Assembly (NCBI GenBank): GCA_025056175.1
Contig: JANWWK010000009.1
Coordinates: 1 to 59,470 of the forward strand
Source: Anaerolineales bacterium
GTDB taxonomy: Bacteria > Chloroflexota > Anaerolineae > Anaerolineales > Villigracilaceae
Direction: 5' to 3'
DNA: 59,470 nucleotides
Made by a program: the position numbers and the translations under genes. The notes under the pieces were generated by a model that was given only the letters and a program-made list of their open reading frames with translations, ran no database searches and was not told the DNA's origin. Each line of letters starts with the position of its first letter. The stretch's first letter is position 1. This document shows positions 10,494-34,856 of the stretch, piece by piece.

Positions 10494-11984
10494 TCAGTTT
10501 CCCTGTTTTCCGTTTCCCCTGCGGACAAACCCGGCCAGAATATCGGCAATGGGCGCATCGGGAGCGAGGAGTTGGGCGCGGATGGGGGTAATCTCCACTT
10601 TTTCGCGGATGAGTTTTTGCAGGGGGGCCGAAAGTTTCTGGTCGCCCATGACGATTGCGCCGAGCAGATGGGTTTTGCCCACCATCAGGCGCAGGCGGTT
10701 GACCTCGAAGCCGCTTTGGGCAATGATGGCGTGGGGCAGTTCGCGCCAGGTTTCGCTATCGCCGCGCGCAATCGCGAGCAGGTCGCCCTCGCCCCGTCCC
10801 TCACCCCCGGCCCCTCTCCCGGTGGGAGAGGGGAGAAGATGAGACGGCGTGTTCCCCTCTCCCTGCGGGAGATGGGAAAGGGGTGAGGGTGCGTTCCTCT
10901 CTCCCTGTGGGAGAGGGGGGAGGGGTGAGGGCGGCTTCCCCTCGCCCTGCGGGAGAGGGGTCAGGGGTGAGGGCACCGCCACCGCCCCGATAATCGTCAC
11001 CGTCAGCCCGGCCAGGCGGGTGACGTTGAAGGGAATGCTCTTGCAATAGGCGGTCGGCTGTCCGGCCATGTTCCGCCCGGCGGCGCGGCCTTGTTCGCGG
11101 GCGGGAGTCCACAGACTATCGAGGACGTGTTTTCCGGCGGCGGGGTCGTAGACCTGGGCCGCATCTCCAGCGGCGTAAATGCCGGGCAGGGAAGTTTCCA
11201 TACGCTCATTGACCAGGATGCCGCGCTCGCAGGCAATTCCTGCTTCGCGCGCCAGGCCGATGCGCGGGGCAATTCCGATGGCATAGGCTATCAAATCAGC
11301 CGGGATGATTTTTCCATTGGAAAGACGCGCGCCGGTCACCTTACCGTTCCTGCCCAAAATTTCGGTCACTTCGGTTTGGGGGGAAAGGGTCATGCCCTCG
11401 CGCCGCAAGAGACTTTCGATGATGCGTGATTCGGTCTCGTCCAGCACGGCGGGCCAGTAGCGTTCACTGCGGAAGACGTAGTGAACCTTCATGCCGCGAG
11501 AGGCCAGCCCTTCGGCCAGTTCCAGCGCGGTGATTCCGCCGCCGGTGACGAGCGCCGGGCGTCCGCGCCGGGCATGGGCCAGCAGGGCGCGGGCATCGGC
11601 CAGGTTATCGAGTTTGTGAACCCCCGCCAGGTCTGCGCCAGGGACTTTGAGCGGCAGGGCTTGCGCGCCGGTGGCAATCAAAAGTTTGTCGTAGGGCAGG
11701 CGCGCGCCGCCTTCGAGTTCAATTTCCTGTTCAGATGGGAAAATGTGGCTGACGCGCGCGCGATAAAAGCGAGCGTTCAGGCGGCTGAAATCGGCTTTCT
11801 GGTAGGGGAAGAGCAGGCTTTCTTCCAGTTCGCCGGTCAGGTAATAGGCCAGGCCGGGACGCGAGTAGTAGCCATGCGGGTCATCGCTGACGACCGAGAC
11901 CTCGCCGCGCTCATCCACCGAGCGGATGGCTTCCAGCGCGGAAATGGCGGCGACGCCGGTGCCAATCAGCAAATAGCGGGTCAT
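10494..11984 (-). CDS. FAD/NAD(P)H-dependent oxidoreductase with inserted repeat
   Basis: 496 residues of the pyridine nucleotide-disulfide oxidoreductase class I family (NirB/rubredoxin-reductase-like). FAD Rossmann motif IGTGVAAISA near the start, LLIATGA near 105, NAD motif VTGGGITALELAEGLA (about 146-161) and second FAD motif GIYAAGDAAQVYD (about 268-280). Residues about 337-400 are low-complexity SPLTPLPQGEG-type sequence encoded by a DNA repeat inserted between the FAD domain and the C-terminal domain. I chose ATG 11984, which overlaps the ferredoxin stop as ATGA; the upstream 23 codons belong to the ferredoxin region. It likely links NAD(P)H or ferredoxin to the cytochrome b/c pair. 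Confidence 0.85.
   Translation of the reverse strand: MTRYLLIGTGVAAISALEAIRSVDERGEVSVVSDDPHGYYSRPGLAYYLTGELEESLLFPYQKADFSRLNARFYRARVSHIFPSEQEIELEGGARLPYDKLLIATGAQALPLKVPGADLAGVHKLDNLADARALLAHARRGRPALVTGGGITALELAEGLASRGMKVHYVFRSERYWPAVLDETESRIIESLLRREGMTLSPQTEVTEILGRNGKVTGARLSNGKIIPADLIAYAIGIAPRIGLAREAGIACERGILVNERMETSLPGIYAAGDAAQVYDPAAGKHVLDSLWTPAREQGRAAGRNMAGQPTAYCKSIPFNVTRLAGLTVTIIGAVAVPSPLTPLPQGEGKPPSPLPPLPQGERNAPSPLSHLPQGEGNTPSHLLPSPTGRGAGGEGRGEGDLLAIARGDSETWRELPHAIIAQSGFEVNRLRLMVGKTHLLGAIVMGDQKLSAPLQKLIREKVEITPIRAQLLAPDAPIADILAGFVRRGNGKQGN
10797..10976. repeat. Second array of the GC-rich hairpin repeat
   Basis: Four degenerate copies of the unit seen at 8-160 (CCTCACCCC, CCCTCTCCC, GGGAGAGGGG), here in mixed orientation: CCCTCACCCC begins the block and GGGGTGAGGG ends several units. 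They are translated in frame within the oxidoreductase. Unit length varies from about 37 to 55 bases, but the total keeps the frame. Confidence 0.8.
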
Positions 11985-12244
11985 TTCTTCCGCTCCGCGA
12001 AGAGATTGGTGCGCTCGAAGGTCAATACCCCGCGCGGACAACGCGCCACGCATTCGCCGCAGGTCAGACAGCGGCTGTTGACCACCGGCTGCCCCAACCA
12101 GGCATGGCGGCGTACGTCAATGCCGATGGGGCAGTTAAACGAGCAGATTCCACACTGTACACACCGGCTGGGGTCGGGCGTGACCTGCCCGGCAGTCAGG
12201 GCTTCGCGGCGGGCGCGTTCACTGCGGAAAAGACCACGAAACAT
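11981..12244 (-). CDS. 2[4Fe-4S] ferredoxin-type protein
   Basis: 87 residues. Two ferredoxin cluster motifs, CVQCGICSFNCP and CLTCGECVARCP, in a HdrC/Fer4_8-like spacing (about 30 residues apart). It heads the four-gene minus-strand redox operon and overlaps the FAD oxidoreductase by ATGA, which suggests a tight complex. The start lies six bases after TATCAT, so the mRNA may be leaderless. It shares a 197-base divergent control region with the hydrogenase locus. Confidence 0.88.
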   Translation of the reverse strand: MFRGLFRSERARREALTAGQVTPDPSRCVQCGICSFNCPIGIDVRRHAWLGQPVVNSRCLTCGECVARCPRGVLTFERTNLFAERKK

Positions 12245-12357: not shown

Positions 12358-12375
12358 TTGTGACTTTGTTCACAA
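12358..12375. promoter_or_regulatory. Perfect CRP/FNR-type dyad upstream of the hydrogenase locus
   Basis: TTGTGA-CTTTGT-TCACAA, an exact 6-6-6 inverted repeat of the CRP-family type. A -10-like TAAAAT lies at 12399-12404 with no good -35, so the dyad centre is about 43-44 bases before the likely transcription start, near the class II activator position. The site also lies between the divergent ferredoxin operon and the plus-strand genes. Confidence 0.72.
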
Positions 12376-12441: not shown

Positions 12442-12801
12442 ATGAACGTACAACAGTTGGTCGAAATTGTCCAGGGACAGGTACTCAACCCCCAGGTTTC
12501 TCTTCGGCATGAATTGAAAGGCGGCTGCGGGGCCGATTTGATGAGCGATGTACTGGCTTCGGTCAAACCCGATGCTGTTTTGTTGACTGGTTTGTGCAAC
12601 ATTCAGGTTGTGCGTACGGCTCAGATGGCCGATGTACGCGCGATTGTGTTTGTGCGCGGTAAGAAACCCACTGCCGAGACGATTGCCCTTGCAACGCAGG
12701 AAGGCATTCCGCTGATTAGCAGCCCCTTTGGGATGTTCGAGCTGTGTGGGCGTCTCTACCAGGCCGGGTTACACAGCCTCGAAGAACCGGTTTCCAGCTA
12801 G
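12442..12801 (+). CDS. DRTGG-domain protein (first copy)
   Basis: 119 residues: one DRTGG domain, the small alpha/beta fold also found in the N-terminal part of some HPr kinases and phosphotransacetylases. Features are KGGCGADLMSDVLASVKPDAVLLTG, RAIVFVRGKKP and GIPLISSPFGMFELCGRLYQAGL. No catalytic residues are visible; it is probably a ligand-binding or docking module. It is the first gene of the hydrogenase-associated regulatory block and is followed after seven bases by the CBS-HATPase gene. GGAAGGAG is 14 bases upstream, longer than usual. A second DRTGG gene lies at 13829. Confidence 0.78.
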   Translation: MNVQQLVEIVQGQVLNPQVSLRHELKGGCGADLMSDVLASVKPDAVLLTGLCNIQVVRTAQMADVRAIVFVRGKKPTAETIALATQEGIPLISSPFGMFELCGRLYQAGLHSLEEPVSS

Positions 12802-12808
12802 GATAACC

Positions 12809-13816
12809 ATGAGTAATCTGCACGAACTGCAAGGACGCCGAGGACGCATCATCACCGATAAAGACGCGCGCGAAATCAGCCGCGTCGAAGAACTCTCGTA
12901 TGACCTGAAAATCAGCGAGGTCATGACGCGCAACGTCAAGACCGTTTCGCCCGATATGCCGATGAACGCAGTCCTGGAAATTTTGCGCGTCAACCGGATT
13001 TCGGGAGTCCCGGTACTCGAACATGGCGACCTGGTCGGCATCTTAAGCATTGAAGACCTGGTACGCTGTATGGAGAAGAACGAGCTGCATTTTCCAGTCA
13101 GCGCGTATATGAGCCGCAACATCGTCAGCGTCAATGCTTACGATTCGGTTGTCAAGGCTATCGAAACCTTCAGCACGCAGCGCAAAGGCCGCCTGCCAGT
13201 TGTAGATGAAGCGGGTAAACTGGTCGGCATCATCACCAAAGGGGATATTACACGTGGGGTGCTGAATGCCCTGCAGCGTGACTACCACGAAGAGGAACTG
13301 CGCCGCTACCGCGCCAGCCACCTCTTCGAGGACATCACTTCTGACCGCACCAGCCTGATTTTGCGCTACAACATCAAACCGCGTGACTATCTCAACGGGG
13401 GGCAGGCTTCCAGCCATATCAAACGCGCTCTCTTGCGGTTGGGTGCAAACCCACAACTGGCGCGTCAGTGCGGCATTGCCATCTACGAAGCCGAGATGAA
13501 TCTGATTATCCACACCACGCATGGGGGGATTATCCGTGTCCAGATTGAGCCGCATCGTATTCTGATGCAGACCACCGACGATGGCCCCGGCATTGAAGAC
13601 GTGCAAAAAGCCCTTACACCGGGCTGGTCCACTGCCAGCCAGGAAGTGCGCGATATGGGCTTTGGCGCGGGCATGGGGCTGGTCAACATTCAACGCTGCG
13701 TGGACAGGATGGAACTGGAATCGGCCCCGGGCAAAGGCACCCGGTTGACCATGGAAATTATTTTGCGCCCGGAAGAACGTTTTAAGGAAACGGAAGAAAA
13801 CGGAACTGTTGCTTAA
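12809..13816 (+). CDS. CBS-pair / RsbT-like HATPase regulatory protein
   Basis: 335 residues. Two CBS domains (about 25-150: VMTRNVKTVSPDMPMNAVLEIL and YMSRNIVSVNAYDSVVKAI), which in this family bind adenine nucleotides. The C-terminal half (about 200-325) is a GHKL ATPase like the RsbW/RsbT serine kinases: N-box EAEMNLIIH, G1 DDGPGI, G2 GFGAGMGLVNI. So it may read energy charge and phosphorylate a protein partner. No histidine-kinase dimerisation domain is present. The start at 12809 (ATG) follows the DRTGG stop by seven bases; a longer upstream frame overlaps the previous gene. Such proteins are known next to hydrogenase genes in anaerobes, but their target is not established. Confidence 0.82.
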   Translation: MSNLHELQGRRGRIITDKDAREISRVEELSYDLKISEVMTRNVKTVSPDMPMNAVLEILRVNRISGVPVLEHGDLVGILSIEDLVRCMEKNELHFPVSAYMSRNIVSVNAYDSVVKAIETFSTQRKGRLPVVDEAGKLVGIITKGDITRGVLNALQRDYHEEELRRYRASHLFEDITSDRTSLILRYNIKPRDYLNGGQASSHIKRALLRLGANPQLARQCGIAIYEAEMNLIIHTTHGGIIRVQIEPHRILMQTTDDGPGIEDVQKALTPGWSTASQEVRDMGFGAGMGLVNIQRCVDRMELESAPGKGTRLTMEIILRPEERFKETEENGTVA

Positions 13817-13828
13817 ACGAGGAAACCC

Positions 13829-14167
13829 ATGAACCTGCAAGAAATCATCCATCGGCTTGACCTGACTCCCCTCACGCACCCGAAACCATTTGAGAGCATT
13901 CACCCCACTGGCGGCTACGCCTCAGACCTGCTCAGTTGCGTCATTGCCGGCGCCAAACCCGGCAATTTGTGGCTGACCATTCAGGCACACGTCAATATTG
14001 TGGCAGTAGCCTCGCTCAATGAGTTGGCCGCCGTCATCGTCACCGAAAATGCGTCGCCCGACCCGGCAGTCATCGAAAAAGCCAACGAACAGGGGGTCAC
14101 GCTGCTGGTCTCCCGCGAAACCACGTATCAGGTGGCCGGAAAATTGTGGGAGATGGGCATTCGGTGA
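13829..14167 (+). CDS. DRTGG-domain protein (second copy)
   Basis: 112 residues, distantly similar to the protein at 12442: TGGYASDLLSCVIAGAKPGNLWLT, AAVIVTENASP and GVTLLVSRETTYQVAGKLWEMG. GAGGA precedes the ATG. Its stop is immediately followed by the PHP gene start, so translation is probably coupled. Two DRTGG proteins in one operon suggest a heteromeric pair or two partners for the CBS-HATPase. Confidence 0.75.
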   Translation: MNLQEIIHRLDLTPLTHPKPFESIHPTGGYASDLLSCVIAGAKPGNLWLTIQAHVNIVAVASLNELAAVIVTENASPDPAVIEKANEQGVTLLVSRETTYQVAGKLWEMGIR

Positions 14168-14917
14168 TTGATAAGGCAGAAGGCGTTGAAGGTATTTCGG
14201 GCTGACCTGCACGTGCATACGGTGCTATCGCCCTGCGCGGGCGTGGAGATGATTCCGCCCCTTATCGTGCAGACGGCGCTTGAACGTGGCATTCACCTGA
14301 TTGCCATCACCGACCACAACGCCAGTGCCAACGTTGCTGCCGTCATGCAGGCTGCCCAGGGGACAGAACTGGTCGTTTTGCCCGGTATGGAACTTCAGAC
14401 CAGAGAAGAAGTGCATCTTCTGTGCCTGTTCGATACGCTCGAACAGGTTTTTTTGTGGCAGGCACAGGTAGACCGCTTGCTTCCCAACCTGCCCAACAAC
14501 ATCGAATACTTTGGTGAGCAATTCATAGTGGATTCGACCGGTGAGTTCCTGCGCCGAGAGGAGCGTCTCCTGCTCAATTCGGTCAATCTCTCGCTCGAAG
14601 ATGCCGCTGCGCAGGTAACGGCATTGGGCGGGTTGGCAATTCCGGCACACATTGACCGCTCTGCCAATGGGTTGATAGCCATTTTGGGGCTGATTCCGCC
14701 TGGCTTCGAGGCTCTCGAACTTTCACGTCACCTCACACCCGCAGAAGCCCGCCGCAAATATCCCCAAACTGCCAGCTATCCGCTCCTGCAGAGTGGAGAT
14801 GTTCACCTGCTGGATGGTTTTCTCGGCTCGACGCATTTTGAAATCGAACGTCCGACGGTTGCCGAGTTGCGCCTGGCGCTGGCCGGGCAGCAGGGTCGTT
14901 CGATGTGGGTAGACTAA
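14168..14917 (+). CDS. PHP-domain phosphoesterase
   Basis: 249 residues of the polymerase-and-histidinol-phosphatase fold. Metal motifs are all present: DLHVHTVLSPC (HxH), ITDHNA (DH), GMELQTREEVHLL (E and H), IPAHIDRS (H) and GDVHLLDGFLG (DxH). It should hydrolyse a phosphoester, perhaps a phosphoprotein or a small phosphate compound; the substrate is not readable. It ends the DRTGG/CBS-HATPase/DRTGG/PHP block. Start: TTG 14168 directly after the upstream stop, or TTG 14186; neither has an ideal ribosome binding site. Confidence 0.82.
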   Translation: MIRQKALKVFRADLHVHTVLSPCAGVEMIPPLIVQTALERGIHLIAITDHNASANVAAVMQAAQGTELVVLPGMELQTREEVHLLCLFDTLEQVFLWQAQVDRLLPNLPNNIEYFGEQFIVDSTGEFLRREERLLLNSVNLSLEDAAAQVTALGGLAIPAHIDRSANGLIAILGLIPPGFEALELSRHLTPAEARRKYPQTASYPLLQSGDVHLLDGFLGSTHFEIERPTVAELRLALAGQQGRSMWVD

Positions 14918-15111
14918 TCATCTCAAAACCTGACAAAATTTATCTAAAATTGTGACAAACATCTCTTCCCTTGCCCCACTCTGTCTGTACAATAAGAGTA
15001 CGAACCTGTAAATCTAACTGATTCTATCTGGCAATCGGCATTCGGCGGCGCATGTGGTGAAATCCCCCTATTTCAGACAACTGACACGCCTAACGACATG
15101 ACATTTGTTAG

Positions 15112-15140
15112 TTGACGAATGACGCCGATGCGATTAAACT
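15112..15140 (+). promoter_or_regulatory. Promoter of the hydrogenase structural genes
   Basis: TTGACG (15112-15117), 17-base spacer, TAAACT (15135-15140), a good sigma-70-type promoter. Predicted start of transcription is near 15147, just before the CRP-type dyad at 15150. The rest of the 280-base gap (14918-15111) shows AT-rich sequence and a single TTGTGA half-site near 14953, but no gene. Confidence 0.6.
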
Positions 15141-15149
15141 AGCGAAAGA

Positions 15150-15167
15150 TTGTGATTTTTTTCACGA
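15150..15167. promoter_or_regulatory. CRP/FNR-type dyad downstream of the promoter
   Basis: TTGTGA-TTTTTT-TCACGA, one mismatch from the perfect dyad at 12358. Its centre lies about 12 bases after the predicted transcription start, a position where a bound regulator would block transcription, unlike the activator-like position at 12358. Confidence 0.6.
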
Positions 15168-15197
15168 AATCAAATTCTTTTCTTTTTGGAGTGTTTC

Positions 15198-15698
15198 ATG
15201 GAAGCAGTCGCCAAACCGCACATTGACGGACTCTGTGAAGATAAACGCGCTTTGCTGGACGAAATTATCGAACAAAACCGCGAGCGCCCCGGTGCGCTGA
15301 TGGTCGTCCTGAACGAAACGCAAAGCAAAATTGGCTACGTCTCTGTTCCGATTCAGCACTACATTGCTAAAAAAATGCGCGTGCCGGTCGGTGCTGTGCA
15401 TGGAGTCGTCACCTTCTATTCGTTTTTTACCACCGAGCCGCGCGGCAAACATACCATGAAGTTTTGCATGGGAACGGCCTGCTATGTGGGTGGCGTGCCG
15501 CAACTGATGGAAAAAGCCAAACAAATCACTGGCACTGAGATTGGCCGTACCACCCCCGATGGTCAACTGACGCTCGAAGTTTGCCGCTGTGTGGGCGCGT
15601 GCTCGCAAGCCCCGGTGGTGATGGTAGATGACGAAATCGTCGGGCGCATCAAACCAAACAAATTTCCGCAGTTAATCAAGAAACTGCTCGAAAGCTAG
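15198..15698 (+). CDS. NuoE-like [2Fe-2S] subunit 1 (HydC type)
   Basis: 166 residues. Helical N-terminal half, then a thioredoxin-like [2Fe-2S] domain with all four ligands: CMGTACYVGG (C-x4-C) and CRCVGACSQAP (C-x3-C). In NAD-linked hydrogenases and complex I this subunit pairs with NuoF and holds an off-path or bifurcation-linked cluster. ATG 15198 was chosen because TTGGAGTG lies seven bases upstream; TTG 15186 overlaps that site. Unusually its partner NuoF is not next: a HATPase and a Cys-less ferredoxin-fold gene come between. A second NuoE is at 18661. Confidence 0.92.
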   Translation: MEAVAKPHIDGLCEDKRALLDEIIEQNRERPGALMVVLNETQSKIGYVSVPIQHYIAKKMRVPVGAVHGVVTFYSFFTTEPRGKHTMKFCMGTACYVGGVPQLMEKAKQITGTEIGRTTPDGQLTLEVCRCVGACSQAPVVMVDDEIVGRIKPNKFPQLIKKLLES

Positions 15699-15740
15699 CC
15701 CTGCTGCGCGCCTGTTTTGCTTTCACAGGCGAGAGTAACG

Positions 15741-16307
15741 ATGAAAGAAATTGCCCTCCATCTTCTGGATTTGGCCGAAAACAGCGTCAGCGCGGGCGCG
15801 AAGACGGTGAAAATCACCGTTTGCGAAGACCAGAACGCCGACCTGTTGACGGCTGTTATCGAGGATGATGGGCGCGGCATGACGCCCGAAATGGTCAAAA
15901 TGGTCACCGACCCGTTTTTCACCAGCCGCACCACCCGCAAAGTGGGGTTGGGCATTCCGCTCTTCAAAGCGGCAGCAGAAGCATGCGGCGGCGGGTTGGA
16001 AATTCAATCCACGCCTGGCGTTGGCACGCGGGTCGAGGCGCGCTTTCAGCACTCGCACATTGACCGTATGCCGCTGGGCAACCTGCCAGCAACCTTTTTG
16101 GGGCTGTCGGTTGCCCATCCCGAAGTGCATTGGATTTTTCACTATACCGCCCGCGCCAATGGGGCGCAGGAATGCTTTGAGTACGACGACCAACCTGTCA
16201 AACAAACGCTCGATGGTCTGCCCATCACACATCCCGAAGTGCTTGCCTGGTTGCGCAGCATGTTGGAAGAAGGGATTGGAGCGGCCCAAAAGATTTTGAA
16301 CGCATAA
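15741..16307 (+). CDS. Stand-alone HATPase (GHKL) protein
   Basis: 188 residues. Histidine-kinase-type ATP-binding domain only: N-box LDLAENSVSAGAKTVKI, G1 DDGRGM, DPFFTSRTT, G2 VGLGIPLFKAAAEACGGGLEI. There is no dimerisation/phosphoacceptor domain and no sensor, so it cannot be a complete histidine kinase. The C-terminal 70 residues do not match anything I recognise. Genes of this type are found inside NuoE-HATPase-ferredoxin-NuoF hydrogenase operons of anaerobes. It may phosphorylate a partner in this operon or act as a chaperone-like ATPase; which is unknown. GAGAG precedes the ATG at 15741. Confidence 0.82.
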   Translation: MKEIALHLLDLAENSVSAGAKTVKITVCEDQNADLLTAVIEDDGRGMTPEMVKMVTDPFFTSRTTRKVGLGIPLFKAAAEACGGGLEIQSTPGVGTRVEARFQHSHIDRMPLGNLPATFLGLSVAHPEVHWIFHYTARANGAQECFEYDDQPVKQTLDGLPITHPEVLAWLRSMLEEGIGAAQKILNA

Positions 16308-16317
16308 GGAGAGAATT

Positions 16318-16686
16318 ATGCCAACCGTCAAATCGCTGGAAGACCTGAAGAAAATCCGTGAAGAAGCCCTCAAAAAGCGCGAAATTAAATCCTCTCCGGG
16401 CAGTGTCCAGATTGTGGTGGGGATGGGCACTCCCGGTATCGCGGCCGGGGCACGTGAAACACTCAAAGAAATTCTGAACTACATCGAAGAGAAAAACCTG
16501 ACCAACATTACCGTCCGCCAAACCGGCAATATCGGCAGAGATTCGTGGGAGCCGATTGTGCAGGTGGTGGTGGGTGAGAATGCGCCGGTGACGTATGGCA
16601 AGGTGACGCCTGCCGCGGCGCGCCAAATCATGGAACAGCACGTCGTGGGTGGCAAAATCGTTAACGATTACGTCATCCCGGCCTGA
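16318..16686 (+). CDS. Thioredoxin-like ferredoxin-fold protein lacking cluster cysteines
   Basis: 122 residues, and no cysteine anywhere. It clearly belongs to the small [2Fe-2S] thioredoxin-like ferredoxins of NADP-reducing hydrogenases (HndB type): GMGTxGIAAGARETLKEI, TGxIG, EPIVQV, TYGKVTP. In those proteins the x in GMGTxGIAAG is Cys and the later motif is TGCIGxC. Here they read GMGTPGIAAG (Pro39) and TGNIGRDS (Asn71 and Asp/Ser), so no Fe-S cluster can be held in the usual way. A structural or docking role in the hydrogenase complex is my inference. The next gap holds a small hairpin (GGCATGG/CCATGCC, 16693-16721). Confidence 0.85.
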   Translation: MPTVKSLEDLKKIREEALKKREIKSSPGSVQIVVGMGTPGIAAGARETLKEILNYIEEKNLTNITVRQTGNIGRDSWEPIVQVVVGENAPVTYGKVTPAAARQIMEQHVVGGKIVNDYVIPA

Positions 16687-16745: not shown

Positions 16746-18533
16746 ATGGCTTTTTATCGTTCTCATGTTCTCGTATCCGTTGACCCGGAGTGTCTGGCGC
16801 GTGGCGCACACGACATCATTGACGCGCTTAATGATGAATTGATTGCGCAAGGATTGATTGACGAAGTGCAGGTGTTGGAAACCTCCCGCATTGGTGACCC
16901 ACACCGCCTTGGTCCCGATATGCTGGTGTACCCGGAAAATGTCCATTACGCCAACCTGACGGTAGATGACATTCCCTATCTGGTGGAAGAGCATTTCCTG
17001 AAGGGGCGCATCGTTGAGAAATTCCGCGCACAAGAAAAAGTCATCACCGATGAAGAATTGGGTGCGCCCAAACCTAAAGAGGTGCGCGTGGTCTTGCGGA
17101 ACTGCGGAAAGATTGACCCGCACAACATCGAAGAATACATTGCCGAAGATGGTTACCAGGCGCTTGCCAAAGTGATTACCGAGATGACCCCTGAACAGGT
17201 CATCGAAGAAGTGATGAAATCGGGCCTGCGTGGACGCGGCGGCGCAGGCTTTCCAGCGGCACGCAAGTGGCAGCTCTGCCGCCAGGTGCAGGATAACCCG
17301 AAATATCTGACCTGCAACGCCGATGAAGGCGACCCTGGCGCGTTCATGAACCGCCGCGTGCTGGAAAGCGACCCGCATTCGGTCATTGAAGGCATGATCA
17401 TTGCGGCCTATGCGATTGGGGCGAGCATGGGCTACATCTACTGCCGCGCCGAATATCCGATTGCGGTGCAGAATTTGAACATCGCCATTGCCCAGGCGCG
17501 CGAATTTGGCTTCCTGGGACAGAACATCTTTGGCACCGATTTCTCGTTTGACCTGGAAGTGCGCATGGGTGCAGGCGCGTTTGTCTGTGGTGAAGAGACC
17601 GCCCTGATTGCTTCCATCGAAGGAAAACGCGGCGAACCCCGCCCGCGTCCGCCTTTCCCGGCAGTCAAAGGCGTTTGGGGCAAACCGACCAACAACAACA
17701 ACGTAGAAACCTACGCTGTGGTGCCGCAAATTATCCTGAAAGGCGCCGAATGGTACGCCAGCATGGGAACGGAGAAGAGCAAAGGCACAAAAACCTTTGC
17801 AATTGCAGGCGATGTGGTCAACACTGGTCTCATCGAAGTTCCCTTTGGTATTACCCTGCGCGAGGTGATTTACGACGTGGGCGGCGGCATCAAAGATGGT
17901 AAGAAATTCAAGGCCATTCAGACCGGCGGCCCGATGGGCGGATGTCTGGTGGAAGAACACCTGGACCTGCCCGTAGATTACGAGGCGCTCACCGCTGCTG
18001 GCTCCATTATGGGTTCGGGCGGCATGATTGTGATGGACGAAGATACCTGCATGGTGGACATTGCGCGCTTCTTCATGGAATTCACGCAGGAAGAATCGTG
18101 TGGTAAATGCACCCCCTGCCGGGTTGGCACCAAGCACCTGCTGGAAATTCACGAAAAAATTTGTGCGGGCAAGGGTGAACCCGCTGACCTGGAGCGCCTG
18201 GATGAACTGTGCGTGGAAATCACCCGTAACTCGCTGTGCGGACTGGGACAGGGCGCACCGAACCCGGTCATCAGCACGCTCAAATACTTCCGGCACGAAT
18301 ACGAAGCCCACATTTACGAGAAACGTTGCCCGGCCAAAGTGTGTCGTGCGCTCATCCGCTTTGAAATTCAGGCGCCGGCCTGCACGGGCTGTACGGTTTG
18401 CTCGCGCAACTGCCCGGTCGAAGCGATTAGCGGTGAACGACGCCAGGTACACGTGATTGACGACGAAAAATGTGTCCGATGCGGCATCTGTGTTCAGGTG
18501 TGTAACTTCAACGCCATCGAGATTTTGAGTTGA
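16746..18533 (+). CDS. NuoF-like flavoprotein subunit 1 (HydB type) with C-terminal 2[4Fe-4S]
   Basis: 595 residues. Domains: N-terminal thioredoxin-like domain (1-95) with one Cys left (C16) and the TGCxGxC position changed to TSRIGDP; FMN/NAD(H) domain with GLRGRGGAGFP (160-170), NADEGDPGAF (191-200) and GAFVCGEET (278-285); the N3-type [4Fe-4S] site ESCGKCTPC plus CGLG (C452, C455, C458, C498); a CPAKVC motif (528-533); and a C-terminal double ferredoxin (C546-C556, C576-C586). This architecture matches HydB/HndC of electron-bifurcating hydrogenases, where the flavin exchanges electrons with NAD(P)H. GGAAAAGG precedes the ATG. Confidence 0.93.
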   Translation: MAFYRSHVLVSVDPECLARGAHDIIDALNDELIAQGLIDEVQVLETSRIGDPHRLGPDMLVYPENVHYANLTVDDIPYLVEEHFLKGRIVEKFRAQEKVITDEELGAPKPKEVRVVLRNCGKIDPHNIEEYIAEDGYQALAKVITEMTPEQVIEEVMKSGLRGRGGAGFPAARKWQLCRQVQDNPKYLTCNADEGDPGAFMNRRVLESDPHSVIEGMIIAAYAIGASMGYIYCRAEYPIAVQNLNIAIAQAREFGFLGQNIFGTDFSFDLEVRMGAGAFVCGEETALIASIEGKRGEPRPRPPFPAVKGVWGKPTNNNNVETYAVVPQIILKGAEWYASMGTEKSKGTKTFAIAGDVVNTGLIEVPFGITLREVIYDVGGGIKDGKKFKAIQTGGPMGGCLVEEHLDLPVDYEALTAAGSIMGSGGMIVMDEDTCMVDIARFFMEFTQEESCGKCTPCRVGTKHLLEIHEKICAGKGEPADLERLDELCVEITRNSLCGLGQGAPNPVISTLKYFRHEYEAHIYEKRCPAKVCRALIRFEIQAPACTGCTVCSRNCPVEAISGERRQVHVIDDEKCVRCGICVQVCNFNAIEILS

Positions 18534-18660: not shown

Positions 18661-19179
18661 ATGTTCAAAGTTGCGGAAGTCCCGTCGCAGGCGGGACAAA
18701 CCAAAGACCTGACCAGAATCGTGGAAGCGGCAGTCGAGAAACATGGCGCGCACGCTGATGCGTTCATCCCGATACTGCTGGAAATCAACCGCGATTACGG
18801 TTATATCCCGGCAGAGGCCATTCGGTTGGCGCGCAAGTTGTTGCACCAGCCTGAGGAGCACGTCCTGGTCTCGGAAGGGCAATTATATGGGCTGGCTTCG
18901 TTCTACCACATGCTCCATACCGAAAAAACCGGCCGACATGTGGTGCAGTTTTGTGAGAGCGCCCCATGCCACGTGCAGGGCGGGCGCGAACTGTGGAAGG
19001 CCATCCGACAGACGTTGCGCCTGGAGGCCGGAGAGACCGACCCTGAAGGTCGTTTTACGCTCAAGACGGTCAGTTGCCTGGGCGTGTGCGGCGTGGGTCC
19101 GGTGATGCTGGTGGATGATGACCTGTATGCCAACGTCACACCGGAACAGTTGACAGAGATTTTCGGCAAGTACGAGTGA
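18661..19179 (+). CDS. NuoE-like [2Fe-2S] subunit 2
   Basis: 172 residues. Same family as the gene at 15198 but clearly diverged. It has ligands FCESAPCHVQGG (C-x4-C) and SCLGVCGVGP (C-x3-C). The helical N-terminal domain includes RDYGYIPAEAIRLARKLL. GAGGAGG precedes the ATG. Unlike the first copy it sits directly before its NuoF partner (ten bases apart), the normal hoxE-hoxF order, so this pair forms a second diaphorase module. Confidence 0.92.
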   Translation: MFKVAEVPSQAGQTKDLTRIVEAAVEKHGAHADAFIPILLEINRDYGYIPAEAIRLARKLLHQPEEHVLVSEGQLYGLASFYHMLHTEKTGRHVVQFCESAPCHVQGGRELWKAIRQTLRLEAGETDPEGRFTLKTVSCLGVCGVGPVMLVDDDLYANVTPEQLTEIFGKYE

Positions 19180-19189
19180 GAGGCGCGCT

Positions 19190-20827
19190 ATGAAATTCTC
19201 CCGGTCTATGGTTCTCGTCTCGAACGACCCCGATAGCGTGCGGCTCGGTGCGCAAGAGGTATATCGCCGCTTTGGGGAAAAATTGCTGGAACTCGGTTTG
19301 AGCGAAGAAGTCACTCTCGCGCAGATTACCGACATTGGACGGCATGATGCCCTTCCGCTGGTCATCGTCTATCCCGAAGCGACGGCCTATGGCCCGGTGA
19401 CGGTGAAAGATGTAGACCGCATTGTCGAGGAACATCTTTACAAAGGCCGCATTGCCGAAGAACTGCTTGCCCCCGTCAAAGAACTCTCCGGACGAATTGG
19501 CTGGTTGAAGGCGCGCAAAGGCGCCAGCCCGATGGAGAAGAAAATCGTCACACGCCGGGTGGGACGCATTGACCCGGAAAACATCGAAGATTACATTGCG
19601 GAAGACGGTTACCAGGCACTTGCCAAAGCCTTGCACATGGAACGTGCTGAAATCCATGCCTTGCTGGAAAAATCGGGCCTGCAAGGGCGCGGCGGCGCGG
19701 GCTTCCCAACTGGCATGAAGTGGCGCTTTGTCGCCAGCACGAAATCGCCCAAGAAGTATGTGGTGTGCAATGCCGATGAGAGTGAACCCGGCACATTCAA
19801 AGACCGCATCATTCTGGAAGGTGACCCGCACAGCATTCTTGAAGCAATGGCGATTGCTGCTTATTGTGTGGGCGCCGATGAAGGCTATATTTATGTGCGC
19901 GGTGAGTACCAACTCGCTCAGCGCCGTCTGGAAAGAGCGATTGTGCAGGCACGCGAATGGGGTCTGCTCGGCAAGAACATTCTGGATACGAATTTCTGCT
20001 TCGATGTGCATGTTCACAGTGGCGCGGGCGCCTATGTGTGTGGCGAAGAAACAGCCCTGCTCGAATCCATCGAAGGCAAACGCGGCGAACCCCGCGCACG
20101 GCCTCCCTACCCCACCACGCATGGCTTATGGGGCAAGCCAACTCTTATCAACAACGTGGAAACGCTTGCCAACGTCCCGCCGATTGTGTTGAATGGGGCA
20201 GAGTGGTACCGCTCTTTCGGTACGCCTTCCAGCCCTGGTACCAAGTGTTACACCATTCTGGGAAATGTCAACTTTCGTGGTCTCATCGAAGTTCCGATGG
20301 GCATTACCCTGCGCGAAATCATCAATATTTACGGGCAGGGCATGAAGAACGGCGCACCGTTCAAGATGGCGCAGACCGGTGGCTCCAGCGGTTCGATTAT
20401 CCCTGCCAGTTTGCAGGATACGCCGATGGATTTCGAGTCCTTCCGTCGCGCGGGCGTTTCGCTGGGTTCTGGCGCCTTGCTCATTTGTGATGAAAGTAAC
20501 TGTGTGCTGGACCTGGCGATTACGCTGATGAAGTTCTTCCAATTTGAGTCCTGTGGAAAATGCACGCCTTGCCGCGTTGGCACCGAGCGCGCTTTGCGCA
20601 TGTTGACAGCCATCAGCCGCGGTGAAGGCAAACTGGAAGACCTGGATACGCTGGCGGCCATTGCCCAGGAGATGGAGTATGCTTCCAACTGTGGATTGGG
20701 ACAAACAGCAGGAGTTCCCATCCGCGATACGCTCAAGTATTTCCGGGCTGAAATCGAAGCGCACATTCGGCTGGGGGTTTGCCCGGCAGGTGTGTGCGAA
20801 ATGACGCCGGCAGTAGAGCGCGTTTGA
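19190..20827 (+). CDS. NuoF-like flavoprotein subunit 2
   Basis: 545 residues. The N-terminal thioredoxin-like domain (1-95) has no cysteine at all (TDIGRHD replaces TGCxGxC). It is followed by GLQGRGGAGFPTG (about 163-175), CNADESEPGTF, GAYVCGEETALL, and the N3 cluster site ESCGKCTPC with CGLG. It ends with a CPAGVC motif and lacks the C-terminal double ferredoxin of the first copy. NADESEPGT is the classic complex-I/HoxF form, whereas the first copy has the HydB form NADEGDPGAF, so the two flavins may differ in NAD/NADP preference. GAGAGG precedes the start. Confidence 0.93.
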   Translation: MKFSRSMVLVSNDPDSVRLGAQEVYRRFGEKLLELGLSEEVTLAQITDIGRHDALPLVIVYPEATAYGPVTVKDVDRIVEEHLYKGRIAEELLAPVKELSGRIGWLKARKGASPMEKKIVTRRVGRIDPENIEDYIAEDGYQALAKALHMERAEIHALLEKSGLQGRGGAGFPTGMKWRFVASTKSPKKYVVCNADESEPGTFKDRIILEGDPHSILEAMAIAAYCVGADEGYIYVRGEYQLAQRRLERAIVQAREWGLLGKNILDTNFCFDVHVHSGAGAYVCGEETALLESIEGKRGEPRARPPYPTTHGLWGKPTLINNVETLANVPPIVLNGAEWYRSFGTPSSPGTKCYTILGNVNFRGLIEVPMGITLREIINIYGQGMKNGAPFKMAQTGGSSGSIIPASLQDTPMDFESFRRAGVSLGSGALLICDESNCVLDLAITLMKFFQFESCGKCTPCRVGTERALRMLTAISRGEGKLEDLDTLAAIAQEMEYASNCGLGQTAGVPIRDTLKYFRAEIEAHIRLGVCPAGVCEMTPAVERV

Positions 20828-20896: not shown

Positions 20897-22888
20897 ATGG
20901 TTCAACTGACAATCAATGGAAAACAAATCGAAGTCCCGGAAGGGACAACCGTCTTGCGGGCGGCGGAGATGGCGGGAGTGAACATCCCAACACTGTGCGA
21001 CCACAAGGAACTGACCCCTTACGGCGGTTGCCGCTTGTGCATTGTGGAAGTGCAGGGTTTTCGCGTGCCGATTGCTTCCTGCACTTTGCCCGTCAGCAAT
21101 GGCATGGTGGTCAGCACCGAAACGCCCGCGCTGAAGAAATCGCGCAAGTTTATTCTCTCGATGCTGTTCAGTGAACGGAATCACTTCTGCCCGTTTTGCC
21201 AGGTGAGTGGCGGCGATTGTGAACTGCAAAATGCCGCTTACCGCGAAGAGATGACCCATTGGCCGATGCAGCCTGGCTGGAGCGGCTACCCGGTTGACTC
21301 TTCTCATCCGTATTTTGTGCTGGATAACAACCGCTGCATCTTGTGCCGCCGCTGTGTGCGTGCCTGCGCCGAACTGGCGGGCAATTTCACCCTGAGTGTG
21401 GCCGAGCGCGGTGCAGCCAGCATTATTGTGGCTGATACGAACGTTCCCCTGGGTGAAAGCACCTGTATCAAGTGTGGTTCTTGTGTGCAGGTTTGTCCCA
21501 CCGGCGCATTAATTGACCGCACGAGCGCTTACCAGGGACGTGAAACTGAAATTACGCCCATCAAATCAGTATGCGTGGGCTGTTCCGTGGGATGTTCCGT
21601 CACCCTGCGCGTGCGCGACAACCGCATCGTGCGTATCGAAGGCGATTGGACAGGCGCTGTCAATCGCGGCGTGTTGTGCGAGCATGGTCGTTATCACCCG
21701 ATGACCGAAGCACGTCAGCGCATTACCACGCCGCTGATGAAAAAGAACGGCAAACTCGAACCGGTCTCATGGGATGAAGCCCTGGGCGCCGTGGCCGAAA
21801 AGTTCAAACCCCTGGCCGGGGATGCGCACAACGGCGCGGCGGCCATCGTCTCCACCCGCTTGCCGGCAGAAGTGCTGGCGGCTTTTCGGCAGGTATTTGC
21901 TGAAAAACTTGGCGCAGAAATGGTCACCAGCACCGAAGAGGGCATGACCACTGCTGCCGTTGCAGCGTTGGCCGCCAGGCAAGGAGTCTTCGAGGGCCGT
22001 CTGGATGTTTTGAAAACCGCTGACGTCGTCTTGTGCATTGGCGCGAACCTGGCGCGCAGTCACATGGTCGCGGGCTTCTTCATCAAACGCGCGTTGCCCA
22101 AAGGCATGAAACTCATCAATATTGACCCCGAAGGCGATGAACTTAACGACCTGGCGGATGTTGCCCTGCAAAACAAACCCGGCTCTGACCTGGCACTGAT
22201 TGAAGGCCTGAAAGCCATCATCATCAAAGAGAACCTGGGCCGCGTACCGATGGCCGTTCCGAACGCCGAAAAAGTGATAGCAGAAGCCGTAGAAGCCACC
22301 GGTTTACCGCTTGCAAAACTGACCCAGGCTGCTCGCATTCTGGCACATGCCATCAGTCCCGTTGTCGTGTATGGTAAGGGCATCACGGCCCAGCGCGATG
22401 AGCGCCTGGTCGAGGCCCTGTACAGTCTGGCCGTTCTGGTCGGTGCGATTGACCAGGAACGCAAGGGCTTCCTTTCGGTCAAGGGAGAGGCCAACAGCCA
22501 GGCAGCGGCGCAGCTGGGGTTAGATAAACCCTTTGCGCTCAACGGTCAGAAGGCCGTTTATGCCCTCATCGGTGATGATTACGTCTCGAAATATCTGGTG
22601 GAACGGCTCTCCAAAGCCCCTTATCTGGTGGTTCAGGCTTCCTACGAATCCAGACTGACACAAATGGCGGACGTGGTTTTGCCTGTTTCCATCTGGGCTG
22701 AGCAGGAAGGTCACTACGTCAGCATGGATGGCCGGGTGCAGAAAGCCGAAAAAGTCCTGACTGCGCCCGAAGGTGTACGTGATAACCTGGCTGTGCTGAC
22801 TGAAGTGGCAATGCGGATGAACATGCCGGTTAAGGTAGATTGGCAGGAATCACTCCACGAACGCCCGGCGAGCGTGGTGATGAATTAA
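20897..22888 (+). CDS. NuoG/HoxU-like Fe-S subunit with molybdopterin-type domain
   Basis: 663 residues. [2Fe-2S] plant-type domain (C34, C45, C48, C62), His-ligated [4Fe-4S] (H96, C98, C101, C108), two ferredoxin clusters (C147-C157 and C190-C200), and an FdhA-type [4Fe-4S] (C226, C229, C233, C261). From about 270 follows a shortened molybdopterin-oxidoreductase fold (DVVLCIGANLARSHMV, NIDPEGDEL, PGSDLALIEGL). No residue at the usual catalytic Cys/Sec site is recognisable and the C-terminal pterin-binding part is short, so this domain is probably structural, as in NuoG. It should wire the diaphorase modules to the hydrogenase. GTGAGGAAC precedes the ATG. Confidence 0.9.
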   Translation: MVQLTINGKQIEVPEGTTVLRAAEMAGVNIPTLCDHKELTPYGGCRLCIVEVQGFRVPIASCTLPVSNGMVVSTETPALKKSRKFILSMLFSERNHFCPFCQVSGGDCELQNAAYREEMTHWPMQPGWSGYPVDSSHPYFVLDNNRCILCRRCVRACAELAGNFTLSVAERGAASIIVADTNVPLGESTCIKCGSCVQVCPTGALIDRTSAYQGRETEITPIKSVCVGCSVGCSVTLRVRDNRIVRIEGDWTGAVNRGVLCEHGRYHPMTEARQRITTPLMKKNGKLEPVSWDEALGAVAEKFKPLAGDAHNGAAAIVSTRLPAEVLAAFRQVFAEKLGAEMVTSTEEGMTTAAVAALAARQGVFEGRLDVLKTADVVLCIGANLARSHMVAGFFIKRALPKGMKLINIDPEGDELNDLADVALQNKPGSDLALIEGLKAIIIKENLGRVPMAVPNAEKVIAEAVEATGLPLAKLTQAARILAHAISPVVVYGKGITAQRDERLVEALYSLAVLVGAIDQERKGFLSVKGEANSQAAAQLGLDKPFALNGQKAVYALIGDDYVSKYLVERLSKAPYLVVQASYESRLTQMADVVLPVSIWAEQEGHYVSMDGRVQKAEKVLTAPEGVRDNLAVLTEVAMRMNMPVKVDWQESLHERPASVVMN

Positions 22889-22953: not shown

Positions 22954-23496
22954 ATGTCCAAACCCAAAATTGCTTCCGATTGGATGTGCGGCTGCGCGGG
23001 TTGCCACATGTCCTTGCTCGATATGGATGAGCGCATTCTGAAAATTGCCGAACTGGCCGAACTGCGCTCCACCCCCATCACCGATTTGAAACACCCCGAC
23101 GAGAGCGGCGTGGATGTGGGCGTTTTGGAAGGCGGTATCAACAATACTGCCAGCGAAGAAGTTGCCAAAATGTTCCGCAAGCGCGCCAAAATTCTGGTAG
23201 CGCTGGGTGATTGCGCCGTGTTCGGCGGTGTACCGGCCATGCGCAACTTGTGTGGCGTTGAAGCCGCGCTCAAACAGGCGTATGTAGATGCTCCCAGCAA
23301 TGAACCGGGCAGCGAAATTCCAAACGACCCCGAACTGGCAGTCATGACCAAGACCCGCGCAATTCATGAAGTGGTACCGGTGGATTACAACGTGCCAGGC
23401 TGCCCGCCCGACCCCGATGTTATCTTCTACGTTCTCTCGGAACTGGCACAGGGCCGCAAGCCGGAACTCAAGGACGAACTCTTGCACTGGCATTAG
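22954..23496 (+). CDS. [NiFe] hydrogenase small subunit (HoxY/HydS type)
   Basis: 180 residues. Short small-subunit type of group 3 hydrogenases with a single proximal [4Fe-4S] cluster: MCGCAGCHMSLLD (C12, C14, C17 region), GDCAVFGG (C87) and VPGCPPDPD. There is no Tat signal, so it is cytoplasmic. AGGAGAG precedes the ATG. The gene is 11 bases ahead of the large subunit. Confidence 0.93.
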   Translation: MSKPKIASDWMCGCAGCHMSLLDMDERILKIAELAELRSTPITDLKHPDESGVDVGVLEGGINNTASEEVAKMFRKRAKILVALGDCAVFGGVPAMRNLCGVEAALKQAYVDAPSNEPGSEIPNDPELAVMTKTRAIHEVVPVDYNVPGCPPDPDVIFYVLSELAQGRKPELKDELLHWH

Positions 23497-23507
23497 AGGA
23501 GAGACCC

Positions 23508-24932
23508 ATGACCCAAAAAATTACCATTGAACCCGTTACCCGTATCGAAGGTCACGCCAAAGTGACCATCCGGCTGAAAGAAGATGGCACGGTTGAGCGT
23601 GCGCTCATGCACGTCAACGAATTTCGCGGCTTCGAGAAGTTCTGCGAAGGGCGTTTGTACTTTGAAATGCCCCAAATTACCCCACGCATTTGCGGAATTT
23701 GTCCCGTGAGCCACCACCTGGCCGCCGCAAAAGCTGGCGATGCCCTGACCGGACAAACCCCGCCCCGCCCCGCCAGCCTGCTGCGCGAACTGATGCACAT
23801 GGGGCAAATCATTCAGAGCCATGGAATGCACTTCTTTGAGTTGGCCGGCCCCGACCTGTTGCTGGGCTTTGATGCCGCGCCGGAAATTCGCAACGTGGTG
23901 GGTCTGATTGGCAACAACCCTGAGTTGACGGTCAAGGCCGTCATGTTGCGGAAGTTCGGACAGGAAATCATCAAAACGCTGGGTGGACGCAAGATTCACC
24001 CCACCTTTGCTGTGCCGGGTGGTGTCAACCGGGCGCTCAAAGTGGAAGAACGCGACTCCATCCTGAAAGGCGTGGATGCGGCCATTGAGACCATTCAACT
24101 TGGCCTGCGCATTATGAAAGACTGGGCTGAGAAGAACATGGAAGACATCAACAAGTTTGCCGTCTTCCAGACCGGTTACTTTGGCCTGATTACGCCCGAA
24201 AACGGCCTCGAACTCTACGATGGCAACGTCCGCCTGATTGACCGGAATGGCGTGGAACTGGAGCGCTTCCCGATTGCCGATTATCTGGATTACATTGCCG
24301 AACACGTTGAACCCTGGTCGTATCTCAAATTCCCGTACTACAAAAAGATGGGCTGGCCCGAGGGCGTGTACCGCGTCGGCCCGTTGGGACGTCTGAACAT
24401 CTCGGACAAAATTGATACGCCGCTGGCAAACGAGGAACTCAAGGTCTTCAAGGCGCTCAATGGTGGCAAGCCGGTCGAAAACACCCTGTACTATCACTAC
24501 GCACGGCTCATCGAAGCGCTCTTTGCTGCCGAACGGGTGCGCGTCTTGTGCGAGGACAGGGATATTTTGAGCACCGACATCCTGAACACCCGCAAGAACT
24601 ACACCGGTCGCGGGGTGGGTGTTATCGAAGCGCCGCGAGGTACGCTCATCCACGATTACACAGCCGATGAAAACGGCAAGTTGACGCGCGTCAACCTGAT
24701 TGTTTCCACCGGTCACAACAACTGGGCGATGACCCATGCCGTGGACAGCGTTGCCAAAACCTACGTCAAAGGCCCGAACGTGACCGAAGGGATGTTGAAT
24801 CGTGTCGAAGCGGCCATTCGGGCTTACGACCCCTGTTTGTCCTGCTCCACCCATGCTGTTGGTCAGATGCCGATGATTGTTGACCTGGTTGGCCCGGACG
24901 GTGAACTCATCAAAACCATTCGGCGTGATTAA
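23508..24932 (+). CDS. [NiFe] hydrogenase large subunit (HoxH/HydL type)
   Basis: 474 residues. The Ni-Fe ligands are complete: L1 motif [11 protein letters not shown] (C62, C65) and L2 motif DPCLSCSTH (C443, C446, H449). After H449 a 25-residue tail remains that a maturation protease would remove after nickel insertion; a candidate protease is encoded at 25677. [14 protein letters not shown] at the N-terminus and the overall length fit cytoplasmic group 3 enzymes. It catalyses H2 oxidation and proton reduction. The gene ends the structural operon, before a strong terminator. Confidence 0.96.
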
Positions 24933-25605: not shown

Positions 25606-25676
25606 CGTTTGAAAGCACGCTTGCAGGGGCGGCAGCCAAAAAGCCGCTCCTTACTTTTGTTATGAGGCATCACAAC

Positions 25677-34753: not shown

Positions 34754-34843
34754 TCGAGCGATGTATTCCTTTTGGAGTGACAAAGAGCGGGTGCATTCCT
34801 GTTCGGAACCACCCGCCTTAAGGTGGATTTTAGCACAGGAAGA

Positions 34844-34849
34844 TACAAT
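34844..34849 (+). promoter_or_regulatory. -10 element of the phosphodiester glycosidase gene, leaderless
   Basis: TACAAT followed by seven bases and ATG 34857. Confidence 0.45.
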
Positions 34850-34856
34850 TAGATAC

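Follow-up and report, generated by a model that had tools for sequence, protein, structure and literature searches.

A 59,470-nucleotide stretch of an Anaerolineales bacterium (Chloroflexota; Villigracilaceae; assembly GCA_025056175.1, contig JANWWK010000009.1, positions 1 to 59,470 of the forward strand; hereafter the window) carries at positions 12,442 to 16,307 a block of five non-redox genes within a hydrogenase locus: DRTGG1, a kinase with two CBS domains (CBS-kinase), DRTGG2, a PHP-family phosphoesterase, and HATP2, a stand-alone GHKL ATPase. In genomes of widely separated bacterial groups, the cassette was found again together with electron-bifurcating enzymes, both hydrogenases and formate dehydrogenases, and its constant partner proved to be the NAD/ferredoxin diaphorase of the Bfu family, not the hydrogenase. 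The kinase arm seems to receive one of two inputs, the putative sensory [FeFe] hydrogenase HydS or CBS domains, and the cassette as a whole resembles a kinase switch that answers either to a hydrogen sensor or to an energy-charge sensor.

A preliminary description of the window had placed five non-redox genes before or between the hydrogenase genes, with CBS domains fused to an RsbT-like ATPase, a bare GHKL ATPase, and PHP as a phosphoesterase. Open reading frames and Pfam profiles agreed with this layout (Table 1). Two CBS domains and the HATPase_c and HATPase_c_2 profiles fell in one frame with an ATG start codon at 12809, the PHP family profile was accompanied by conserved metal-ligand positions, and HATP2 showed a HATPase_c domain and no phosphoacceptor domain in the Pfam scan. 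At E ≤ 0.001, PF07085 (DRTGG) matched exactly two proteins in the entire 3.57 Mb genome, DRTGG1 and DRTGG2. The HATP2 gene lies within the diaphorase operon, between NuoE and the gene that we label HndB-like, a name of our own. By its domains (ferredoxin-like 16-93, FMN 156-327, NADH_4Fe-4S 438-522, and Fer4 541-592 in the BfuB-type NuoF), the diaphorase matches the BfuB plus BfuC make-up of the Bfu electron-bifurcating family and is predicted to bifurcate.

Among Chloroflexota relatives, a full-length CBS-kinase (E ≤ 5e-128) was present in 12 of the 41 genomes searched, our own included. The order DRTGG1, CBS-kinase, DRTGG2, PHP was kept in all 11 other loci, 10 of which ran on into NuoE, HATP2, HndB, and NuoF; the block is therefore conserved beyond chance, and the earlier view of it as a conserved block of signalling type, not an accident of one genome, was borne out. 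Two of these loci (L021 and L023) carried a formate-dehydrogenase-like gene, and the 20 kb read there contained no [NiFe] genes; L020 lacked the second NuoE/NuoF pair. In a set of 201 Chloroflexota genomes, our own included, HATP2 (E < 1e-50; next-best matches approximately 1e-16) was found in nine, and a BfuB-type NuoF lay at most 1.7 kb downstream on the same strand in all nine.

A similar pattern was observed in 245 genomes of Clostridia, of which 124 encoded HATP2 (E ≤ 1e-30), 194 HydB (E ≤ 1e-170), and 117 HydS (E ≤ 1e-45). HATP2 and HydB occurred together in 123 genomes (123 of the 124 with HATP2), HATP2 alone in 1, HydB alone in 71, and neither in 50, with HydB no more than 8 kb from HATP2 in at least 107 of the 124. 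HydB was also encoded in all nine genomes in which the cassette was free-standing, displaced, or adjoining Rnf genes, with no diaphorase after it; it lay on another contig in seven of these and upstream on the same contig in two (G246 and G247). The asymmetry between HATP2 and HydB, together with these nine genomes, indicates that the cassette implies the diaphorase and not the reverse.

The HATP2 alignment was also used to scan named genomes. The 80 best among at least 586 confirmed places came from Chloroflexota, Clostridia, and Bacteroidales. Co-occurrence of the five families, which the preliminary description had named as a check on its proposal, was found beyond this genome. Two of the 98 loci assembled, L024 and L035, duplicate L013 and L023; they were kept among the 98 and dropped from the residue, site, label, tree, and completeness counts. 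All five genes were present in 65 of the 75 non-duplicate loci in which 5 kb or more precedes HATP2 (21 loci with less than 5 kb were left out of this count), and one of the ten incomplete loci, L032, was incomplete owing to a cut at the locus end. No fusion among the five members that could point to contact between them was seen in the collected loci, the single joined frame being NuoF1/NuoE2 in L055. Within Bacteroidia, HATP2 was found in 2 of 149 genomes, one of them the seed genome.

Labelling of the catalytic neighbours in 96 loci, window included, gave [NiFe] hydrogenase in 33, [NiFe] hydrogenase plus formate dehydrogenase in 3, [FeFe] hydrogenase in 21, formate dehydrogenase in 8, and Rnf in 2; a diaphorase was present in a cut locus in 12 and no catalytic unit was seen in 17, loci cut by contig or locus ends being scored as cut or none. 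Representatives scored above the profile cut-offs (formate dehydrogenase alpha, 784 bits vs 666; group A6 [FeFe] hydrogenase, 911 vs 765; RnfC, 568 vs 246). A formate channel adjoins the formate dehydrogenase form in L030, and L104 was the sole Chloroflexota cassette seen joined to an [FeFe] hydrogenase. The hydrogenase is thus not the constant partner, since the catalytic unit varies among [NiFe], [FeFe], and formate dehydrogenase and two cassettes precede Rnf. The link to hydrogenases drawn in the preliminary description held as far as a conserved block near hydrogenases is concerned, but not as a hydrogenase-specific one. The cassette as a mark of [NiFe] hydrogenases was ruled out by the formate dehydrogenase, [FeFe], and Rnf loci, and an association of the CBS domains with [NiFe] enzymes by L104, where the CBS-kinase accompanies an [FeFe] hydrogenase. 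By parsimony on the HATP2 tree the type of neighbour changes 11 times; this tree is weak, with 45 of its 91 inner branches open, and the branches that have good support require far fewer changes than that.

Two further arrangements were observed. In Alkaliphilus peptidifermentans and a metagenome-assembled genome of Clostridia, the cassette stands directly before Rnf genes with RnfC and RnfB matches (L074:8001-13712 and L078:6392-12510). Four clostridial loci (L068, L071, L082, and L090) carry DRTGG1, DRTGG2, PHP, and HATP2 with no kinase and no adjoining matched redox enzyme; their genomes encode HydB on other contigs, and the cassette of L068 is flanked by genes that by eye resemble housekeeping genes.

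The kinase arm differed between the phyla. The clostridial kinase is approximately 140 aa long, lacks CBS domains, and adjoins HydS, a protein of approximately 440 aa usually encoded between the kinase and DRTGG2. The L084 HydS was shown by Pfam to contain an H-cluster domain, N-terminal 2x[4Fe-4S], and a C-terminal Cx2Cx4Cx16C motif, and this protein, the sole HydS scanned for PAS, had no PAS domain. The motif was present in 23 of 24 HydS proteins of at least 350 aa, followed by a tail of 7-65 residues, the 24th (L098) being cut at the locus end; this domain make-up and motif are those of the group D (M2e) [FeFe] hydrogenases, putative sensors. The kinase (E ≤ 1e-14) or HydS was present in 120 of the sampled Clostridia: 115 had both, 3 the kinase alone, and 2 HydS alone, with neither in the remaining 125 genomes; the two genes were neighbours on one strand in 112 of the 115. 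HATP2 and HydS occurred together in 112 genomes, HATP2 alone in 12, HydS alone in 5, and neither in 116. They were not seen within 10 kb of each other in 31 of the 112, lying on different contigs of draft assemblies in 29 (some perhaps assembly breaks) and more than 300 kb apart on one contig in 2.

Across the 98 HATP2 loci, window included, 53 showed CBS domains without HydS, 26 showed HydS without CBS domains, and none showed both; neither was seen in 3 (L032 and L038, cut at the kinase, and L074, the Rnf-adjoining cassette of A. peptidifermentans), and no kinase was shown in 16, several of them cut. L016, which has no HATP2, lies outside this count. In Chloroflexota, the kinase carried CBS domains in 53 loci (51 once two duplicates are removed), L104 among them, and the only exceptions were L032 and L038, both cut inside the kinase. 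In the loci seen, the kinase is paired with HydS or with CBS domains and in no case with the two together, which points to one kinase arm with two alternative inputs. Ten Clostridia had HATP2 but no kinase or HydS, and five had the kinase and HydS but no HATP2; because arm and core occur separately in this way, the cassette can be split into a sensor arm (DRTGG1, kinase, and HydS or CBS domains) and a core (DRTGG2, PHP, and HATP2). In the CBS pair, S79, D82, and T142 were each kept in 52 of 53 sequences and D145 in 53 of 53, S/T-x-x-D positions that we take to be the ribose-binding motif. Adenylate charge, to which the preliminary description had tied H2 metabolism, is thus a reasonable input for the CBS form, but not the sole input of the cassette, as the clostridial kinase lacks CBS domains and is accompanied by a putative H2 sensor.

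Residues were counted in Chloroflexota and Clostridia, plus three Bacteroidales rows for DRTGG2, PHP, and HATP2, with sequences outside length limits omitted and kinase numbering starting after Met. Kinase residues E226, N230, D256, G258, G260, G285, G287, and G289 were conserved in 80 of 80 sequences; E226 and N230 align with the SpoIIAB N box and correspond to the Glu that is catalytic and the Asn that binds Mg in serine kinases of SpoIIAB type, in keeping with the RsbT-like domain described earlier. The only PDB sequence matches of the clostridial kinase at E ≤ 0.1 were to SpoIIAB, aligned through the N box. PHP retained D49, H50, E75, H161, D211, and H213 in 88 of 88 sequences, H83 in 87, and H15 and H17 in 86, positions that we take to be metal ligands. 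HATP2 retained D10, N14, D42, G44, G46, G69, and G71 in 95 of 95. Both DRTGG families have an invariant serine: D32, S35, and D36 were conserved in 82 of 82 DRTGG1 sequences, Ser35 standing in a D-L-[ML]-S-D motif, and D33 and S36 in 84 of 84 DRTGG2 sequences, Ser36 being the equivalent motif position.

Structure prediction gave a DRTGG1 model (predicted local distance difference test score, pLDDT, 94.3) that has the DRTGG fold, matching AF1212 (2ioj) with Z 17.2 and a root-mean-square deviation (rmsd) of 2.0 over 114 aligned residues; S35 lies at the start of helix 34-40. The HATP2 model (pLDDT 89.3) shows a GHKL ATPase, with MutL as its nearest match (Z 13.6, rmsd 3.0, 147 aligned), a rank shared by many GHKL rows. 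Its Foldseek rows included branched-chain ketoacid dehydrogenase kinase at 30-37% identity over 83-112 columns; this enzyme is a serine kinase. Absence of a fold such as STAS from these structure matches does not exclude that fold.

Upstream sequences revealed a candidate regulatory feature. The Rex/Crp-like palindrome TTGTGA-N6-TCACAA, whose core is shared by the Crp consensus, occurs at up to one mismatch exactly twice in the window, compared with 0.08 expected, and none of 100 shuffles reached two. Among Chloroflexota loci, 30 of 57 carried it ahead of NuoE and 12 of 49 ahead of DRTGG1; the background, in which these sites are included, was 48 of 2394 windows. The corresponding positions in Clostridia gave 0 of 25 and 0 of 32 (L016, L024, and L035 were omitted from these counts). 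The genome encodes one Rex-type protein (PF06971). A Crp-family gene lies shortly downstream of the hydrogenase (26951-27649), followed by two large proteins with adenylate/guanylate cyclase, AAA, and TPR domains (30824-34858 and 35757-39053), and a cyclic-nucleotide link from these genes to the palindromes is possible. The local Crp-family gene was rejected as a conserved operator partner, having no relative in the fetched loci, many of which end at or shortly after the hydrogenase genes.

The interpretation that we favour, holding its chances to fall a little short of even, is that the block represents, in its Chloroflexota version, a signalling cassette that serves Bfu diaphorases specifically and consists of a sensor arm and a core, the HATP2 gene of the core usually being placed inside the diaphorase operon. 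It builds on the observed gene order, the diaphorase as partner, the HydS-or-CBS arm, the active-site residues, and the invariant serine of both DRTGG families, and we infer from these a course of phosphotransfer, contacts, and output. The CBS pair would read adenylates and set kinase activity in Chloroflexota, and HydS would read H2 and do so in Clostridia. The kinase would phosphorylate DRTGG1 at Ser35, HATP2 would handle DRTGG2 in parallel, and PHP would take the phosphate off. The state of DRTGG and HATP2 would then control whether the NuoE-HndB-NuoF core is assembled or active, throttling bifurcation at high H2 or high energy charge, and the transcriptional arm would be a regulator of Rex or Crp type that acts at the two palindromes. 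A broader proposal, that the cassette is a STAS-less partner switch for bifurcating diaphorases with DRTGG carrying the phosphate and HydS and CBS as interchangeable inputs, the kinase being the missing partner of group D sensory hydrogenases, is more tentative, and we lean somewhat against it.

Several observations weigh against this interpretation. Three clostridial loci among the ten incomplete ones lack the kinase, three Bacteroidales loci have DRTGG2, PHP, and HATP2 only, with DRTGG1 and the kinase missing, and L081 and L097 have HATP2 without the other four genes; in L104, PHP is an N-terminal remnant between DRTGG2 and HATP2 (L104:9813-9988). The loss of PHP and the loci with HATP2 alone indicate that parts of the cassette are dispensable. 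L016, the eleventh locus with a full-length CBS-kinase, shows no NuoE or HATP2 in the 1.6 kb from PHP to the contig end, and 29 of the 41 genomes searched lack a full-length CBS-kinase, so the block is not universal. NuoF/BfuB (E ≤ 1e-120) was present in 123 of 201 Chloroflexota, against nine with HATP2, and 71 of 194 clostridial HydB genomes have no HATP2, so the enzyme family can do without the cassette; in G335, HATP2 is present but no HydB was seen. The co-occurrence counts take no account of genome relatedness. The match of the clostridial kinase to SpoIIAB is weak (E about 0.002), and AF1212, the one comparator on which the specificity of the serine rests, has Gln at the Ser35 position. 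DRTGG domains elsewhere bind nucleotides, and we know of none that acts as a phospho-acceptor.

The same genes can be read as assembly or repair machinery, HATP2 being a MutL/Hsp90-like clamp that loads or repairs the flavin or Fe-S cofactors of the diaphorase with DRTGG and PHP while the kinase arm merely tunes it. The position of the HATP2 gene between NuoE and HndB in both phyla is consistent with such a role, as is L081, where HATP2 keeps this place without the other four genes, and the HATP2 model is closest to MutL, GyrB, and TopoVI ATPases. These values (Z about 13), however, reflect the shared GHKL fold only, the 71 HydB genomes without HATP2 argue that the enzyme can be made without it, and signalling is favoured by how closely the arm is tied to a sensory hydrogenase; we therefore regard this account as unlikely.

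To a similar extent we doubt that the cassette serves nucleotide signalling, in which PHP would degrade a small nucleotide, DRTGG and CBS would bind it, and the ATPases would act on the nucleotide state and not on protein serines. The modelled DRTGG1 structure aligns with a pyrophosphatase in its CBS-DRTGG region (3l2b, Z 13.9; 3l31, Z 13.8), which binds adenine nucleotides; the relatives of PHP include a 5'-3' exoribonuclease, EndoQ, and phosphoesterases; and the S/T-x-x-D positions of the CBS pair are conserved. However, nucleotide signalling leaves unexplained both the near-obligate pairing of a SpoIIAB-like kinase with HydS and the invariant serine in both DRTGG families.

A transcriptional partner switch, with the kinase as anti-sigma factor, DRTGG1 as anti-anti-sigma factor, and an alternative sigma factor driving the hydrogenase operon, would fit the clostridial kinase, for which sequence comparison with the PDB at E ≤ 0.1 gave anti-sigma F factors alone, and the place of DRTGG1 directly upstream of the kinase gene, like that of spoIIAA, which precedes spoIIAB. 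We nevertheless judge it distinctly unlikely. The Pfam scan, at thresholds from 1 to 1e-6, found no STAS, sigma factor, or PP2C domain in the five cassette proteins and 30 further proteins of the window; it covered these proteins, not every open reading frame, and PP2C and sigma factors were sought among them only, not genome-wide. Such a switch would also leave HATP2 and PHP without a role, and both halves of the block already have a Rex/Crp-like site of their own upstream. Hitch-hiking of old but functionally unlinked diaphorase neighbours has a negligible chance of being correct: close relatives do inherit neighbourhoods together and our sample was uncorrected for phylogeny, but HydS and HATP2 co-occur in 31 genomes though not within 10 kb, HydB was encoded on another contig for each of the seven tested cassettes that stand free or adjoin Rnf, and the neighbour type changes repeatedly on the weak HATP2 tree.

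Table 1. Coordinates of the cassette, the diaphorase and hydrogenase genes, and the candidate operators in the window
Feature	Position	Strand	Basis or remark
Perfect palindrome TTGTGA-N6-TCACAA (Rex/Crp-like candidate operator)	12358..12375	+	upstream of DRTGG1
DRTGG1	12442..12801	+	119 aa; Pfam DRTGG 28.8 bits, cut-off 25.2
CBS-CBS-kinase (SpoIIAB/RsbW/RsbT-type kinase domain)	12809..13816	+	CBS 106.5 bits, HATPase_c 40.1, HATPase_c_2 32.1
DRTGG2	13829..14167	+	112 aa; Pfam DRTGG 32.0 bits, cut-off 25.2
PHP-family phosphoesterase	14168..14917	+	Pfam PHP 35.0 bits, cut-off 26.4
Second Rex/Crp-like palindrome (candidate operator)	15150..15167	+	1 mismatch; before NuoE / hydrogenase structural genes
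NuoE/HydC-like [2Fe-2S] thioredoxin-fold subunit (BfuC-type)	15186..15698	+	Pfam PF01257
HATP2, stand-alone GHKL ATPase	15741..16307	+	HATPase_c 58.0 bits; C-terminal part of ~80 residues
HndB-like thioredoxin-type protein	16318..16686	+	weak 2Fe-2S ferredoxin matches; gene order conserved
NuoF (BfuB/HydB-type)	16746..18533	+	N-terminal ferredoxin-like part, C-terminal 2x[4Fe-4S]
Second NuoE	18661..19179	+	domain profiles
Second NuoF, without C-terminal ferredoxin domain	19190..20827	+	domain profiles
NuoG-like subunit with molybdopterin-oxidoreductase domain	20897..22888	+	domain profiles
[NiFe] hydrogenase small subunit	22954..23496	+	PF01058 over cut-off
[NiFe] hydrogenase large subunit	23508..24932	+	PF00374 over cut-off

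Further genes flank the locus. A small protein of two CBS domains is encoded in two copies (25162-25605 and 26384-26830) on either side of a 172-aa gene (25662-26180), which had no Pfam match at E ≤ 0.01 and whose start, in our estimation, resembles a hydrogenase maturation protease; the first copy has a relative near hydrogenase genes in 6 of the 11 relatives' loci. Upstream of the block, on the minus strand, lie a multihaem cytochrome with c7/c3-type profiles (8473-9897) and an oxidoreductase-like frame (10494-12053) with proline-rich repeat units (PSPLTPLPQGEG...) at about 10782-10976, probably a short-repeat insertion within the frame.

As so regular a neighbour of HydS in the sampled Clostridia, the kinase makes the question of the signal output of putative sensory [FeFe] hydrogenases directly testable. 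If the favoured interpretation is correct, bifurcating enzymes, which are central to fermentation, syntrophy, and biofuel strains, would have a dedicated control, and the Chloroflexota form suggests that the input was swapped while the kinase and the DRTGG proteins remained.

No description of the cassette as a unit was recognised in the literature searched, which was not all of print, and there DRTGG together with hydrogenase concerned only a different DRTGG protein. The passages of PMC3561251 available to us place sensory hydrogenases usually upstream of bifurcating ones, often with a histidine/serine kinase between, and contain no account of DRTGG, PHP, or the cassette as a whole. PMC8163306, from which the Cx2Cx4Cx16C motif is taken, reports an ATPase adjoining TamHydS; PMC13104023 (2026, on TamHydS) calls identification of the interaction partner(s) critical, and PMC11837493 reports that deletion of HfsB, a different sensor of PAS type, alters fermentation in Thermoanaerobacterium. 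A sensory hydrogenase of this group D (M2e, TamHydS) belongs to the clostridial form of the cassette, whereas the Chloroflexota form in the window has no HydS and instead has CBS domains fused to the kinase.

Comparison with the SpoIIAB/RsbW/RsbT systems showed a Bergerat-fold kinase with N-box Glu/Asn and G boxes, a small partner encoded directly upstream, and a separable input in common. Unlike in those systems, DRTGG proteins and a PHP enzyme occupy the places of the STAS substrate and PP2C, and a second GHKL ATPase is encoded inside the target operon. Since no STAS substrate, sigma factor, or PP2C was seen among the proteins scanned, the cassette would work like a partner switch and not be a member of that class. 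The Bfu family (BfuABC/HydABC, including NiFe-HydABCSL) has, according to PMC9304861, many catalytic partners, with regulatory genes marked in its Figure 3; the words HATPase, PHP, and kinase do not occur in that text, a check outside which the gene names of the figure fall. The window shares with this family NuoE, an HndB-like protein, and NuoF with C-terminal 2x[4Fe-4S], joined to [NiFe] subunits, and goes beyond it in having NuoE and NuoF a second time, plus a NuoG-like subunit that contains a molybdopterin domain. The CBS-DRTGG region of family II pyrophosphatase (3l2b and 3l31) and AF1212 (2ioj) have the same DRTGG fold as the DRTGG1 model, and CBS and DRTGG are likewise used together in the pyrophosphatase; in the cassette, by contrast, they are separate proteins, and the DRTGG proteins carry a cassette-wide serine that AF1212 lacks.

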